Assembly (NCBI GenBank): GCA_016191785.1 | Contig: JACPVJ010000022.1 | Location: 1 to 64,000 of the forward strand | Length of the DNA stretch: 64,000 nt | Direction: 5' to 3' | Origin: Myxococcales bacterium | GTDB taxonomy: Bacteria; Myxococcota_A; Polyangia; Polyangiales; Polyangiaceae | Shown here: positions 1,569-7,153 of the stretch, in pieces | Layout: each line of letters starts with the position of its first letter | Position numbering within the stretch: the first letter of the stretch is position 1 | Notes under the pieces: model-generated | Database searches by the model: none | The model's input: only the letters and a program-made list of their open reading frames with translations | Told to the model about the DNA's origin: nothing | Position numbers and translations under genes: made by a program

Positions 1569-3479
1569 ATGACGCTGCGATCTTGGACACTGGGCTTGGG
1601 GCTGGCGCTGATTTCGGGCATGGCGGCGGCGACGCCCATTCCCCGCTACGAAGACCTGCTGGGCAAGCCGCCAAAGCCGGCGCTCCCGAAGCCGCTGTCC
1701 GCGCCGCCCTGGGTCAGCACCAAGGTGCTCGCCATCGACACCCAGCTGGACGTGACGCCCGAGACGGGCGTGCTCACGGGGCAGGTGGCCCTGAAGATCG
1801 AGGCGGTCGCCACGGTGACTCAGGTCTCGCTGCTGATCGATGGCGGGCTGAAGCCCGCGCAAGCGACTGCGCCCGGAAAGACCGTGAACGTCTCGAGTCA
1901 GGCGTACCAGGGGTACACGCTGGTGACGCTCGACGTGAGCCCCCCGCTCGCGGTCGGCGAGAGCGTCAGCGTGACCGTCGGGTACTCGGGCACCCTCGAG
2001 TGCAAGACGGAGGGGTGCCACGCGGGCAAGCCGCTGGCGTTTCTGTCGGAGAATGGCGCCATCCCTGGCGTGTACGACCAGGACAACCTCGGTGGCTACA
2101 ACGCTTGGGGCGCGAGCCGTGCGCTCACCGTTTCGGTGCCCGAGGGGACGGACGTGGTCGCCAGCGGCGATCGCGTGGCGAAGAGCACTGCCGCCGGCAA
2201 GACCACCACCCAGTGGGTGATCCCCGGCTACCACAGCTACGGCGGCAACGTCGTGATGATGGGACAGCTGGCCTCGAAGCCGGTCGGCGGGGTGAGCCTT
2301 CCGACCGAGGTGTTCACCACCAGCGCCGGGCCGAGCTACGCCGGCGAAATGGCCGGGTGGATGCAGCAGATCGTCCCGTTCCTGGACGACCAGGCCGGGC
2401 AGAAGCTGCCCTATCCCGAGCTCAAGGTGTTCAAGCTGCCGCTCGGCTGGCTGAACATCTTCCGCGGCACGGCCGGGCACGGGCTCACGCTGCTCAGCGA
2501 AGACTACGCCACGGGCAACGTCCACTACTTCGAAGAAACGCTGGCCCACGAGAACGCCCACCAGTGGTGGGGCGTGCTCGTCTCGCCGACGGACATCCAG
2601 ACCACCCGCTGGCTGGTCGAGGGCCTGGCGACGTTCAGCCAGATCGACTACGCGGCGAAGGTCCAGAACCCGAAGGTGTCGCGAGACGAGTACCTGGCGC
2701 GGCGCTACCGCGAGCACTGGCTCTTGGTGAAGTACCGGGGCGATCCCACCCTGCCGCTGGTGGTCGGAAGCTCGTCCGCGATCCCGACCGACAGCGTCCA
2801 GAACACGCTCTGGGCCTACATCCGTTCGTCGGCGCTGCTCGAGTACCTGCGGGTCGTGATCGGCGACGCGAAGTTCGCGACGTTGCTCCGGGGCTGGGCC
2901 AAGGCCTGCTCCCAGAAACTGTGCGACACCGCCGATTTCCTGACGCTGCTCGAGCAAGAGAGCGGCGAGGAGTTCGACGCCGTGTTCGCGCAGTGGGTCT
3001 GGGCCGGCGCGGCTGTCGAGCCCAGCATCGGCTTCACCCAAGCCGGGGGCCAGCTCCGCATCACCGCCGCGGGGGTTGGGAGCGCCACGCTGCCGCTCGA
3101 GCTCTGGATCACGCTCGCCGACGGCACGCTGAAGAAGCAGCGGGTCCGATTCGAGGGCTCGAAGCCCGTCGAGATCGACGAGCCGGCGGCGGTGCGCAGC
3201 GTGCGGCCGAACCCCCGACAAGAGGGCATGATCTGGAGCCGATCGGTGGTGCCTTCGGACGTCGATTTCGACGCCGAGGTCGACGGGCTCGACGTCATCC
3301 ACTGCGCGCGCCTCCGTGGAAAGAGCGCTGACCCGTCACAGCCCGAAGGTGAGGGGATCTGGTCCAGTGACCTCGACTTCGACCCTCGGTGCGACGCCGA
3401 CCACGACGGGACCATCACCGACACGGATCTGGCCACCCAAGCCCAGGCCTTTGGCACCCTGACTGGAGGCGCGAAGTGA
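1569..3479 (+). CDS. Secreted M1-like (gluzincin) metallopeptidase with C-terminal dockerin
   Basis: 636 residues from ATG 1569; TTG 1557 would add four residues. A signal peptide (LGLALISGMAAA) is followed by an M1 beta domain and the zinc site HENAHQWWG, with H327 and H331. The third ligand candidate is E351 in WLVEGLATF. The usual GAMEN-type substrate motif is not recognisable. After about residue 560 come two calcium-loop repeats, DVDFDAEVDGLDVI (from 564) and DADHDGTITDTDL (from 609), both with Asp at loop positions 1, 3, 5 and 12 as in type I dockerins. The next gene encodes a cohesin lipoprotein and overlaps this stop by GTGA. The enzyme is therefore probably tethered to the cell surface non-covalently. 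Peptide specificity cannot be read from the sequence. Confidence 0.85.
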   Translation: MTLRSWTLGLGLALISGMAAATPIPRYEDLLGKPPKPALPKPLSAPPWVSTKVLAIDTQLDVTPETGVLTGQVALKIEAVATVTQVSLLIDGGLKPAQATAPGKTVNVSSQAYQGYTLVTLDVSPPLAVGESVSVTVGYSGTLECKTEGCHAGKPLAFLSENGAIPGVYDQDNLGGYNAWGASRALTVSVPEGTDVVASGDRVAKSTAAGKTTTQWVIPGYHSYGGNVVMMGQLASKPVGGVSLPTEVFTTSAGPSYAGEMAGWMQQIVPFLDDQAGQKLPYPELKVFKLPLGWLNIFRGTAGHGLTLLSEDYATGNVHYFEETLAHENAHQWWGVLVSPTDIQTTRWLVEGLATFSQIDYAAKVQNPKVSRDEYLARRYREHWLLVKYRGDPTLPLVVGSSSAIPTDSVQNTLWAYIRSSALLEYLRVVIGDAKFATLLRGWAKACSQKLCDTADFLTLLEQESGEEFDAVFAQWVWAGAAVEPSIGFTQAGGQLRITAAGVGSATLPLELWITLADGTLKKQRVRFEGSKPVEIDEPAAVRSVRPNPRQEGMIWSRSVVPSDVDFDAEVDGLDVIHCARLRGKSADPSQPEGEGIWSSDLDFDPRCDADHDGTITDTDLATQAQAFGTLTGGAK

Positions 3480-4009
3480 CCCGCTGGCCGTTCCTGCTGC
3501 TGCCTCTTGCCGTCGCCGGCTGCTCGTCCGACGACGACGGCGGAAGCTCGAAGCCGAAGCCCGAGCCGACCCTGGCGTTCGAGGCCGATCCCAAGCCGCC
3601 CGGAGTGGCGCTGACCTTGCGCCAGAAGGAGCTCACCCAAGATCGGCTGGTGCTCGAGTTGGTCGGCAGCGCGGTTCAAGATCTGTATGGCGTGGCTTTC
3701 CGCTTGTCGTACGACAGCGCGGCCTTGTCGTTCACCAAGCTCGACGCGGGGCCGGCGTGGGGCGGCACCCCGGTCATCGCGCTCGGCGCCGTGAAGACGC
3801 CCGGCCTCCTCGTGGGGGCGGTCAGCGCGAAGGGCAAGCAGAGCGGGGTCGACGGCAACGAGGTCGTGCTCGGCGTCGTGACCTTCGTGCTGAACCAGCA
3901 GAAACCCACCGCGATCGACTTCGTCGTGCAGCGGAGCGCGTTCGTCGACGTGACGGGCAAGGCGGTCACCGGCGTCGCGTTCGCGGGCGGCGACCTAGTC
4001 CTGAGGTGA
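3476..4009 (+). CDS. Cohesin-domain lipoprotein, probable anchor for the dockerin peptidase
   Basis: 177 residues from GTG 3476, which overlaps the peptidase stop by four bases (GTGA). The signal peptide ends in a lipobox, LAVAGC, with Cys16 followed by S-S-D-D-D. A short Ser/Lys/Pro stalk leads into one domain that follows the cohesin pattern: a strand LVLELVGSA, the signature GVAFRLSYDSAALSF, a GLLVGAVSAKG strand, GVVTFVL, and a final segment GVAFAGGDLVLR. Cohesins bind dockerins in a calcium-dependent way. With the dockerin on the neighbouring product this reads as a two-gene anchor-plus-enzyme unit. The 3' end overlaps the convergent cyclase gene by 15 bases. Confidence 0.82.
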   Translation: MTRWPFLLLPLAVAGCSSDDDGGSSKPKPEPTLAFEADPKPPGVALTLRQKELTQDRLVLELVGSAVQDLYGVAFRLSYDSAALSFTKLDAGPAWGGTPVIALGAVKTPGLLVGAVSAKGKQSGVDGNEVVLGVVTFVLNQQKPTAIDFVVQRSAFVDVTGKAVTGVAFAGGDLVLR

Positions 4010-7000
4010 GACCAGCTCGGGGAGCGGTAGGGTCACCCCCAGACGTCTGAAGCTGCTCGCGAGCGCCTCGACCCGAGCAGCGAGCTCGGCGCTTCGGTCG
4101 CCGCGTGCGACCGCGGCCCAGGCCAAACCGCGCTCGGCGACCACCCGACACAGCTCGAGCGGGCCCTCGCTTGCGACCTGGGCCAACGCCTGGGCGTGGG
4201 CCTCGATCAGCTCCGGGTCGTGCCGCAGGAGGCCGAGCTCGATCGCCCACCTCCGGAAGAAGAAGTGGTTGTAAAACTGCGCGTCGCCGGCCAGCACCGC
4301 CTCGCCCTCGGTCAGGTGACGCTCTTGCGTGGGCCGGTCGGGACTCAGGAATGCTCCGAGTGCCAATAGCCAGGGGCCGACGTACCCGAGGCCGGTCTGC
4401 CGGGCGATTTCCAGCGCCGCGGCGACGATGGATCGAGCTTCATCGCGCTCCCCGAGCCCCACGTGCACCTCGGCCAGCACACCCAGGAACTCGGCTTCGA
4501 AGCGCCGGGCGTGGAGTGCCCTGGACATCGCGAGCGCTTGCTCCGCGGGCTCTCGTGCTCGGCTGGCGTCCCCGCAAAGCACCCACACCACCGAAATCAG
4601 GTGTCGGGCGAACATCTCGCTGTGACGATCGCCCAGGCGCACGGCGGCCTCAAGGCCCAGCCCGGCAGAGTCGAGCGCGCCGTGCATCCGGCCCTCGAAG
4701 ATGTCGCCGAAGCAGAGCATCAGTCGATTGGGTAGAGCGATCCGGTCGAAGCCGTGCGCGTCGCAGAGCTCGACCGACTCGCGGAAGCGCTGTGTCGCCG
4801 CGCTGATGTTGCCCAGAGCGTACTGTGCGTCGGCGATTCCACTCGCGGCTCGCGCCTGCCAGAGGGGGCTCGCCGCTCGCTCGGCCTGGGCCAGCGCAGT
4901 CAGGTGCTCGGCCAGGCACGCCTCTCGCCGAGACAGCGCGAACAGGAAACTGCCGCGATAGTAGTGGATTTGCGCCAGCTCGAGCGGCAGGTCGTGAGCA
5001 ATCGCGATCGCTTCCGCCGAGGCGAGCGCCGCCAGCCCGCGGTCGTGCTCGGACAAGCGGCGGAAGGCGGCGGCGAGGCCGATCGAGGCACGACAGCGCT
5101 CGAGGTCGCCGCCGGCCGCCTGCTCGGCGATCGCGTACATGCTCTCGGCCCGGCGTGCGTCCCCGACCTCGAGCGCCAGGTCGCCGAAGAACACCGCAAT
5201 GGAAAAGCGATCGTGGGCAGCACGGGCCAGCCCGAGCGCTCGTTCCAGCAGGCCGAACGCGCGCTCGAACTGGAACGCGGTTGCCTCTTCCTGGGCGGCG
5301 GCAAGGTAAGCCCGCGCCGCGCGCTCGTCGTCCGCTCGCTCGAGGTGCTCGGCGTGAGCCCGCGCGTCGTTTCCGCGGAAAAAGTCCGCGGCCTTGGTGT
5401 GGAAACCGCGGCGGCGCGCGCGGGTGAGCGAAGAGTAGACTCCTTCGCGGATGAGCGCGTGCTGGAAGCACAGGTCATCTCCATCCCGTCTCAAGAGCTC
5501 GTGCGTCACGAGCGCCGTCGGCGCGTAGGCCGGGTCGCCCACAACGGCTCGGAGTGACGCGAGCGCAACGCGGTGTCCCAGGACCGACGCGGCCATCAAG
5601 GCCATTCGGTCCGCCTCGGGCAGCCGATCGGCGCGAGCCATGACCAGACTCTGCAGGGTGGCGGGGAGCTTCTCGCTGTCGGCCTGTCGAACGTTCTCGA
5701 GCAGCTGAAGCAAGAACAGCGGGTTCCCGCCGGCGCGCTCGATGCAGCGCCGTTCGGCTTCAGCGTGACCGCCGTAGGTCGCAGATGCCAGCGCGAGCGC
5801 GTCCGCTTCGCTCAACGGGCCCAGGTCGATGGGCGACACCGGCGTCGGGGCAACGACAGCGGCGAGATCCGGGCCGAGCGGGTCTCCGTCGAGGCGCGTC
5901 GTCAGTACCACGACAGCCGGTGCGAAGGCTGCGGCGCGCGCCAGCTCGAGCAACGACGCGAGCGTCGCCGCGTCGGTCCAGTGTACGTCGTCGACCAAGA
6001 CGAGGGTGGGACGCCTGCGCGCGGCCTGCTCGAGCAAGCCACGAAACGCGGCCCGCCGCCCCGTCGTGCGCGCGGAGTGATCCATCTGTTCGAGCAGCTT
6101 CGCGCCGTCAGCCGTCGGGGCCAGCCCGATCAAGTCCCGGAGCATCGGGTCGAGATCGCCGTCGACCGGTGCCAAACCCCGGGCGAGCCTTCGGATCGGA
6201 TCGCGCTCGGCGGCGACCCCGAAGTCGAGCGCCATCGCCCGGTGGATCGAGAAGCCTCGCGCTTCGGCCAGCACCTCGAGCTCCGAGCAGAGGCGCGACT
6301 TCCCGATCCCCGGCTCACCCCGCACGACCACCAGAGCGCCGGCGCGCCGAGCGAGCACGCTCTCGAGCAGCGCGGCGAGCGAGGCCACCTCCGCACGCCG
6401 TCCGATCAACCGTGGACCGTCGGCGGGGGCGCCGGCCTCGAGCCCGGTCAGCCGCCAGGCTCTCACCGGTTCCGAGAGGCCCTTCAGCTCGAGGTCGCCG
6501 ACGGGCTCGAAGCGCGCCACGTGCCGGGTGGCTCGGTACACCGCGTCGCTGACCAAGGTCTCGCGCGCGCAGGCCTTGTCTTGCAGGCGCGCGGCCAGGT
6601 TCGCGGCGTCCCCCACCACCGTATAGGCCTGGTGGTGACGGCTGCCGAGCCCACTGGCCACGACCTCGCCGCTCGCGATGCCGATGTGGACGGTCACCTC
6701 GAAACCGACCTCGGCCGACAGGGCGTCGGCGCGCGCATGAATCTCGAGCGCCGCGCGCACGGCCCGCTCCGGGTCGTTGCCGTGGGCGACCGGCGCGCCG
6801 AATAACGCCATCACGTTGTCGCCGATGTGCTTGTCGATCGTCCCGCCGAGATCGGCGACGGCCCCGTCGGCTTTGGCGAAGAACCCCTCGAGCAGGTGGT
6901 GGACGTCTTCGGGGTCGAGGGTGCTCGAGAGCCGGGTGTAGCCGCTGAGATCGGCGAACAACACGGTGACGGGGCGGCGCTCGCCGGCCGTCGAGCGCTT

Positions 7001-7153
7001 TTCCGAGAGCGCGAGGCCGCACCCGCCGCAGTAGCTCTCGCCGGGGTGATTCACGAAGCCGCACGCGTCGCAGGCGCCGGCGAGCGCACCCCCGCACTCA
7101 CGGCAAAACCGCCTTCCCTCACGGTTGTCGGCGCGACAAATCGGGCAGTCCAT
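3995..7153 (-). CDS. Double zinc ribbon, class III adenylate/guanylate cyclase and AAA-type ATPase regulator
   Basis: 1052 residues. Four CxxC pairs (C3/C6, C17/C20, C28/C31, C42/C45) form a double zinc ribbon. A class III cyclase domain follows with the metal Asp in FADLSGYT, the second in HIGDNVMALF (preceded by Lys) and VVGDAANLAARL carrying the transition-state Asn/Arg, so the domain looks catalytically complete. A P-loop, GEPGIGKSR, near residue 275 and a Walker B-like LVLVDDVHW near 400 mark an NTPase module; the rest is TPR-like helical repeats. This fusion is common in signalling proteins of unknown input. It is the last gene of a minus-strand group (10201 to 3995), with a TAAGAT box 11 bases before the ATG that could give it its own transcript. 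Confidence 0.9.
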   Translation of the reverse strand: MDCPICRADNREGRRFCRECGGALAGACDACGFVNHPGESYCGGCGLALSEKRSTAGERRPVTVLFADLSGYTRLSSTLDPEDVHHLLEGFFAKADGAVADLGGTIDKHIGDNVMALFGAPVAHGNDPERAVRAALEIHARADALSAEVGFEVTVHIGIASGEVVASGLGSRHHQAYTVVGDAANLAARLQDKACARETLVSDAVYRATRHVARFEPVGDLELKGLSEPVRAWRLTGLEAGAPADGPRLIGRRAEVASLAALLESVLARRAGALVVVRGEPGIGKSRLCSELEVLAEARGFSIHRAMALDFGVAAERDPIRRLARGLAPVDGDLDPMLRDLIGLAPTADGAKLLEQMDHSARTTGRRAAFRGLLEQAARRRPTLVLVDDVHWTDAATLASLLELARAAAFAPAVVVLTTRLDGDPLGPDLAAVVAPTPVSPIDLGPLSEADALALASATYGGHAEAERRCIERAGGNPLFLLQLLENVRQADSEKLPATLQSLVMARADRLPEADRMALMAASVLGHRVALASLRAVVGDPAYAPTALVTHELLRRDGDDLCFQHALIREGVYSSLTRARRRGFHTKAADFFRGNDARAHAEHLERADDERAARAYLAAAQEEATAFQFERAFGLLERALGLARAAHDRFSIAVFFGDLALEVGDARRAESMYAIAEQAAGGDLERCRASIGLAAAFRRLSEHDRGLAALASAEAIAIAHDLPLELAQIHYYRGSFLFALSRREACLAEHLTALAQAERAASPLWQARAASGIADAQYALGNISAATQRFRESVELCDAHGFDRIALPNRLMLCFGDIFEGRMHGALDSAGLGLEAAVRLGDRHSEMFARHLISVVWVLCGDASRAREPAEQALAMSRALHARRFEAEFLGVLAEVHVGLGERDEARSIVAAALEIARQTGLGYVGPWLLALGAFLSPDRPTQERHLTEGEAVLAGDAQFYNHFFFRRWAIELGLLRHDPELIEAHAQALAQVASEGPLELCRVVAERGLAWAAVARGDRSAELAARVEALASSFRRLGVTLPLPELVSPQD

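Follow-up and report, generated by a model that had tools for sequence, protein, structure and literature searches.

Neighbouring genes in many families of Myxococcota, a phylum of predatory bacteria, encode an exported M1-like metallopeptidase that ends in a dockerin and a lipoprotein that carries a single cohesin domain, and this two-gene unit recurs in both gene orders. The copy described here lies in the window, the whole stretch of 64,000 nucleotides that was analysed (positions 1 to 64,000 of contig JACPVJ010000022.1, assembly GCA_016191785.1, from a Myxococcales bacterium). We favor the possibility, and hold it with good confidence, that the pair is a private one-to-one cohesin-dockerin tether, probably Ca2+-dependent, for an M1-like enzyme without the GXMEN glutamate of aminopeptidases. 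This model draws directly on the domain identities, the cohesin fold, the conserved calcium ligands, the lipoboxes and the gene pairing in two orders.

The peptidase gene occupies 1569..3479 (636 amino acids, ATG at 1569, stop included) and the lipoprotein gene 3476..4009 (177 amino acids, GTG start at 3476, stop included); both, with all of their features given below, lie on the forward strand. Start and stop overlap in the four nucleotides GTGA (3476..3479), and a Shine-Dalgarno-like GGAGG (3465..3469) sits within the peptidase gene ahead of the lipoprotein start, at a position that is the same in many relatives. A 4-nt ATGA or GTGA overlap, with the peptidase followed by the lipoprotein, was present at 14/14 Polyangiales loci, and such an overlap was available in 39 of the 44 distinct loci inspected phylum-wide, in both gene orders. 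The coordinates and the overlap given in an earlier, sequence-only reading of this DNA were correct, and its placement of the host among the myxobacteria agrees with our finding that the close relatives are Polyangiaceae MAGs. Co-translation through the overlap would be expected to yield near-equal amounts of peptidase and lipoprotein. Scans for promoters and terminators gave no signal above that of shuffled sequences.

Just upstream of the peptidase gene, on the same strand, is a gene for a small Rieske-type protein (1202-1540; PF00355, E=1.5e-10). On the opposite strand, a convergent gene (3995-7153) encodes a 1052-amino-acid protein with a zinc ribbon, a guanylate/adenylate cyclase domain, an AAA ATPase and TPR repeats, and its 3' end overlaps the end of the cohesin gene by about 15 bases. 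Both were considered as members of the unit and dropped. Only within the genus does the Rieske gene adjoin the pair (elsewhere, in Labilithrix, it is found 2-5 kb away on the opposite strand), and none of the relatives' fetched flanks, which were short, contained the cyclase gene.

Judged on its own sequence, the window pair is only suggestive of cohesin and dockerin. The lipoprotein scored 15.5 bits against Cohesin (PF00963; gathering cut-off 24.1) and the peptidase scored 10.8 bits at full length and 16.1 bits when only a fragment was used against Dockerin_1 (PF00404; gathering cut-off 22.9). Because both scores were below the Pfam cut-offs, we tested the family instead. Dockerin_1 matched the C-termini of 14/14 Polyangiales orthologues (best 3.1e-6) and its gathering score was exceeded by the paired peptidases of some relatives (G314, G275 and G277), while Cohesin matched 9/14 Polyangiales lipoproteins (best 1.7e-5), with the lipoprotein of a genus mate, G086, above the cut-off at 25.7 bits. 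The Pfam search that had been proposed as a check thus succeeded for the family and fell short for the single sequences of the window. Searched against the PDB, the family profile of the lipoprotein found almost only cellulosomal cohesins (best 4.1e-5) and that of the dockerin region placed a dockerin on top (7.8e-5) with many others behind it, mixed with weaker EF-hand proteins. The family profile was needed for this, as a phmmer search of the PDB with the single lipoprotein returned only noise (SRP54, S5).

The lipoprotein begins with a signal peptide that ends in the lipobox LAVAG|C16 (3476..3523), and a lipobox-type cysteine was found in 14/14 Polyangiales members. The mature protein consists of little besides a short linker and a single cohesin domain (approximately residues 41-177; 3596..4006). 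Its AlphaFold2 model (m825637214261) has a mean pLDDT of 90, rising to about 98 across most of the domain, and forms the cohesin beta-sandwich; alignment with the cohesin 6kgc_A by VIA-align 2 gave a Z of 15.7 (133 residues aligned, 2.5 A) and Foldseek matched cohesins at E 4.9e-8. Nearly all of the 50 structural matches listed are cohesins, be they of types I, II or III or non-cellulosomal.

The dockerin (approximately residues 562-630; 3252..3458) has the two duplicated F-hand calcium loops of type I dockerins, with Asp/Asn ligands. Loop 1 (D564-D575, DVDFDAEVDGLD; 3258..3293) holds the best conserved piece of the domain, the pattern GD....G..DG.D, across 43 sequences from the phylum. Loop 2 (D609-D620, DADHDGTITDTD; 3393..3428) keeps its first and last Asp phylum-wide, the ligands of this loop being variable in distant members. 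The loops are not identical at positions 10-11 (GL versus DT) and DG.D is kept phylum-wide in loop 1 only, which hints at a single binding mode, rather than dual binding, for the window dockerin. Cys579 (3303..3305) and Cys608 (3390..3392) do not vary among the 14 Polyangiales sequences, absent from the other loci of the 43-sequence alignment and lost jointly in L073; going by this pattern they are likely to form a lineage-specific disulfide of the dockerin. Given the Pfam matches in orthologues, the PDB profile matches and the predicted cohesin fold, the domain matches are not due to chance. We conclude that the window proteins belong to the cohesin and dockerin families by fold and features, at scores below the Pfam thresholds in the source species, and the central claim of the sequence-only reading, that the gene for a dockerin-bearing peptidase is paired with one for a single lipidated cohesin, has been borne out.

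The peptidase starts with a probable Sec signal peptide (MTLRSWTLGLGLALISGMAAA; 1569..1631) that has no lipobox. Its assignment to an M1-like cargo was likewise upheld, as the protein matches PF01433 (E=5e-13), and its AlphaFold2 model (macd717401794, pLDDT 83) has the M1 fold, with a best VIA Z of 26.7 and a Foldseek E of 6.5e-29 against M1 aminopeptidases. The zinc site has the HEXXH...E form: H327, E328 and H331 of the motif HENAH (residues 327-331; 2547..2561) are invariant in 14 sequences, and the third ligand, Glu351 (2619..2621), is conserved in at least 90% and is Asp in L037. Glu351 follows HEXXH at a spacing of 19 residues in the window peptidase, compared with 18 in most non-Polyangiales members. 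Tyr417 (2817..2819), also invariant in the 14, is probably the catalytic tyrosine, judging from its role in M1 enzymes. In M1 aminopeptidases, the glutamate of the GXMEN exopeptidase motif binds the free N-terminus of the substrate. When aligned by position, the paired family has no Glu at the corresponding place, which reads GTAGH, GTATF, GAAFG or GGGYA, and canonical aminopeptidase activity should therefore not be assumed for the paired peptidase. The best PDB sequence match of the window peptidase (E 1.3e-6) is a bacterial enzyme, the two-domain M1 metallopeptidase from Deinococcus radiodurans (6a8z, 6iff), whose fold is similar (Z 24, with 22-23% identity); unlike it, the window peptidase carries an additional beta region at its C-terminus as well as a dockerin, and it is without Glu at the GXMEN place.

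In a search of 184 genomes of the order, the lipoprotein query gave 13 convincing genomes and the peptidase query 14 strong loci. The 14th Polyangiales lipoprotein (L037) had diverged too far to be picked up by the first lipoprotein search and was found beside its peptidase. Within the order, the dockerin and the gene pair were found in the same 14 genomes. Widened profiles run on 379 genomes of the phylum located 67 places for the dockerin and 55 for the cohesin, and at 46 of the latter a dockerin gene lies alongside in the same orientation, the cohesin coming first in 28 and the dockerin in 18. Three of the nine unpaired cohesin places (G261, G379 and G239) lie close to contig ends or on short contigs; a truncated peptidase flanks the G261 cohesin and a truncated likely peptidase that of G379. 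The other six are weak matches or lie within a giant open reading frame. Two more divergent pairs (G290 and G326) were seen only in fetched DNA. By genome, 45 of the 379 had both domains, 14 the dockerin only, 7 the cohesin only and 313 neither; Fisher's test on this co-occurrence gave a tiny p value, one that ignores shared ancestry. In the fetched neighbourhoods, the pairs showed M1-like peptidases with HEXXH, and the paired peptidase was M1-like at all loci where it was not cut off. No relative of the lipoprotein was found in the plasmids and phages searched.

Two further observations from the phylum-wide search concern other kinds of protein. Giant open frames of 3,466-4,615 amino acids with Pfam Cohesin stretches occur in G216:C12, G237:C137 and G225:C97, separate from the lipoprotein pair. 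At L159 (G443:C56) a dockerin-like motif lies in a 418-amino-acid frame and is followed by a hydrophobic, arginine-rich C-terminal tail; this protein is not a peptidase.

A plausible scenario for how the tether works is that the ordinary signal peptide exports the peptidase, an enzyme of M1-type zinc fold, while the lipidated cysteine would hold the cohesin lipoprotein in the membrane. The C-terminal dockerin, folded around two calcium ions, would then dock on the single cohesin domain. We infer the binding of cohesin to dockerin, its dependence on calcium, the activity of the enzyme and the membrane face of the anchor, be it the cell surface or the periplasm. Among the phylum loci, cohesin and peptidase were never found in one reading frame. 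That they persist as separate proteins whichever gene comes first suggests that being separable is itself important, and docking is probably kept as a separable step (assembly once the enzyme has been exported, or release on a drop in calcium) and not as a permanent anchor. A bolder extension, which we regard as doubtful, is that calcium gates display and release throughout the phylum: the lipidated cohesin would hold an M1-like peptidase that has no exopeptidase glutamate and is possibly an endopeptidase, and cells would attach, release or exchange the enzyme as the calcium level dictates, for instance during predation.

Strict pairing and coupled translation would fit an enzyme and its regulator equally well, and we also considered that the lipoprotein may be mainly a regulator, folding helper or inhibitor whose contact positions the enzyme or blocks it until it is at its site, with membrane attachment secondary. 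Divergence of the two proteins speaks to this alternative as well. Co-divergence was strong by Mantel test, and it was equally strong for the catalytic domain and the dockerin; the partial correlation of cohesin and dockerin given the catalytic domain was 0.35 and that of cohesin and catalytic domain given the dockerin was 0.46, so that the dockerin is not singled out. Nevertheless, we think a regulator unlikely, as the mature lipoprotein has no obvious inhibitory element beyond its linker and cohesin domain, and conservation of the lipobox in all 14 Polyangiales lipoproteins argues that membrane attachment matters. It could also be supposed, from the window scores below the Pfam cut-offs, that the domains derive from cohesin and dockerin but have lost the ability to bind each other, the dockerin being a calcium-stabilised C-terminal cap and the lipoprotein having another partner. 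This we find barely credible, since both domains keep their diagnostic features and are encoded side by side throughout the phylum in both orders, which would not be required of an unrelated cap.

Whether the anchor is private or shared was addressed by searching for further partners. The sequence-only reading had suggested that other dockerin proteins of the genome could share the anchor; no such proteins were found in the source genome, where the family dockerin profile finds only the window peptidase and where family profile searches overall give one dockerin and one cohesin of the pair's class. The sub-threshold Pfam dockerin matches inspected in that genome (L001-L009) turned out to be FG-GAP proteins, DNDGDGxVDC-type repeats and others, and were rejected as dockerins. 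With one dockerin and one cohesin, the anchor seems private there. The idea that it is instead a general socket for other dockerin cargos too, in a small multi-enzyme display system, takes its support from relatives: L153 (G361), L154 (G347) and L155 (G467) are extra dockerin-bearing M1-like peptidases whose fetched surroundings contained no cohesin gene, and in G308 there are about 24 dockerin-like matches and about 19 cohesin-like stretches. Another extra peptidase of this kind, L152 (G237), ends at a contig edge. In such relatives the anchor could be shared, and these few dockerin peptidases that have no adjacent cohesin indicate that pairing is not absolute. As a general account we nevertheless consider the socket very unlikely, given the single dockerin and cohesin of the source genome and two genus mates, G085 and G086, in which no Pfam dockerin match at E 0.01 or better was seen. 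In G308 (family f54; examples are C411, C73, C186 and C155), the cohesin- and dockerin-like open reading frames reach 3,914 amino acids, and a genuine non-cellulosomal system of several components may exist there.

Cellulosomes are the main source of known cohesin-dockerin pairs, and the function of the non-cellulosomal copies is mostly unclear. In Myxococcota these modules appear to have a simpler use, as plug and socket for one enzyme and one anchor, and a fixed two-gene unit with one enzyme family makes this function directly testable. These small natural pairs, some with a probable disulfide-stapled dockerin, also provide a set for protein engineering. In the literature that we searched, which excludes Peer et al. 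2009 (a possible earlier mention, and reportedly the main survey of non-cellulosomal cohesin and dockerin modules), we found no prior description of the pair in Myxococcota.

The type I and II pairs of cellulosomes (Clostridium thermocellum, Acetivibrio, Ruminococcus) resemble the Myxococcota pair in the cohesin fold and in having a two-loop calcium dockerin at the C-terminus of the enzyme. Unlike them, the Myxococcota pair consists of one cohesin and one dockerin, with a lipoprotein as anchor, a peptidase as cargo and neither scaffoldin nor carbohydrate enzyme. That the unit is non-cellulolytic, as the sequence-only reading proposed, is consistent with the source genome, in which we saw no sign of a cellulosome: there was no multi-cohesin scaffoldin, and a Pfam Cohesin scan returned nothing besides the window lipoprotein. 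There is precedent for such modules outside cellulosomes. The non-cellulosomal cohesin of Archaeoglobus fulgidus (2xdh) is among the structural matches of the lipoprotein (Z 14.1), and in ANME archaea cohesins and dockerins occur outside cellulose degradation and are described as variable between species (PMC9012536). The Myxococcota modules differ from these in forming a fixed pair of overlapping genes that involves one enzyme family and is conserved across the phylum. In Ca. Stygibacter (Cloacimonadota), dockerin-bearing secreted peptidases of families S8 and C25 have been proposed to serve polypeptide degradation, in a system that has a 3,755-amino-acid multi-cohesin scaffoldin and carbohydrate enzymes as well (PMC8542988). 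The Myxococcota pair differs from it in joining a single-cohesin lipoprotein to an M1-like enzyme.
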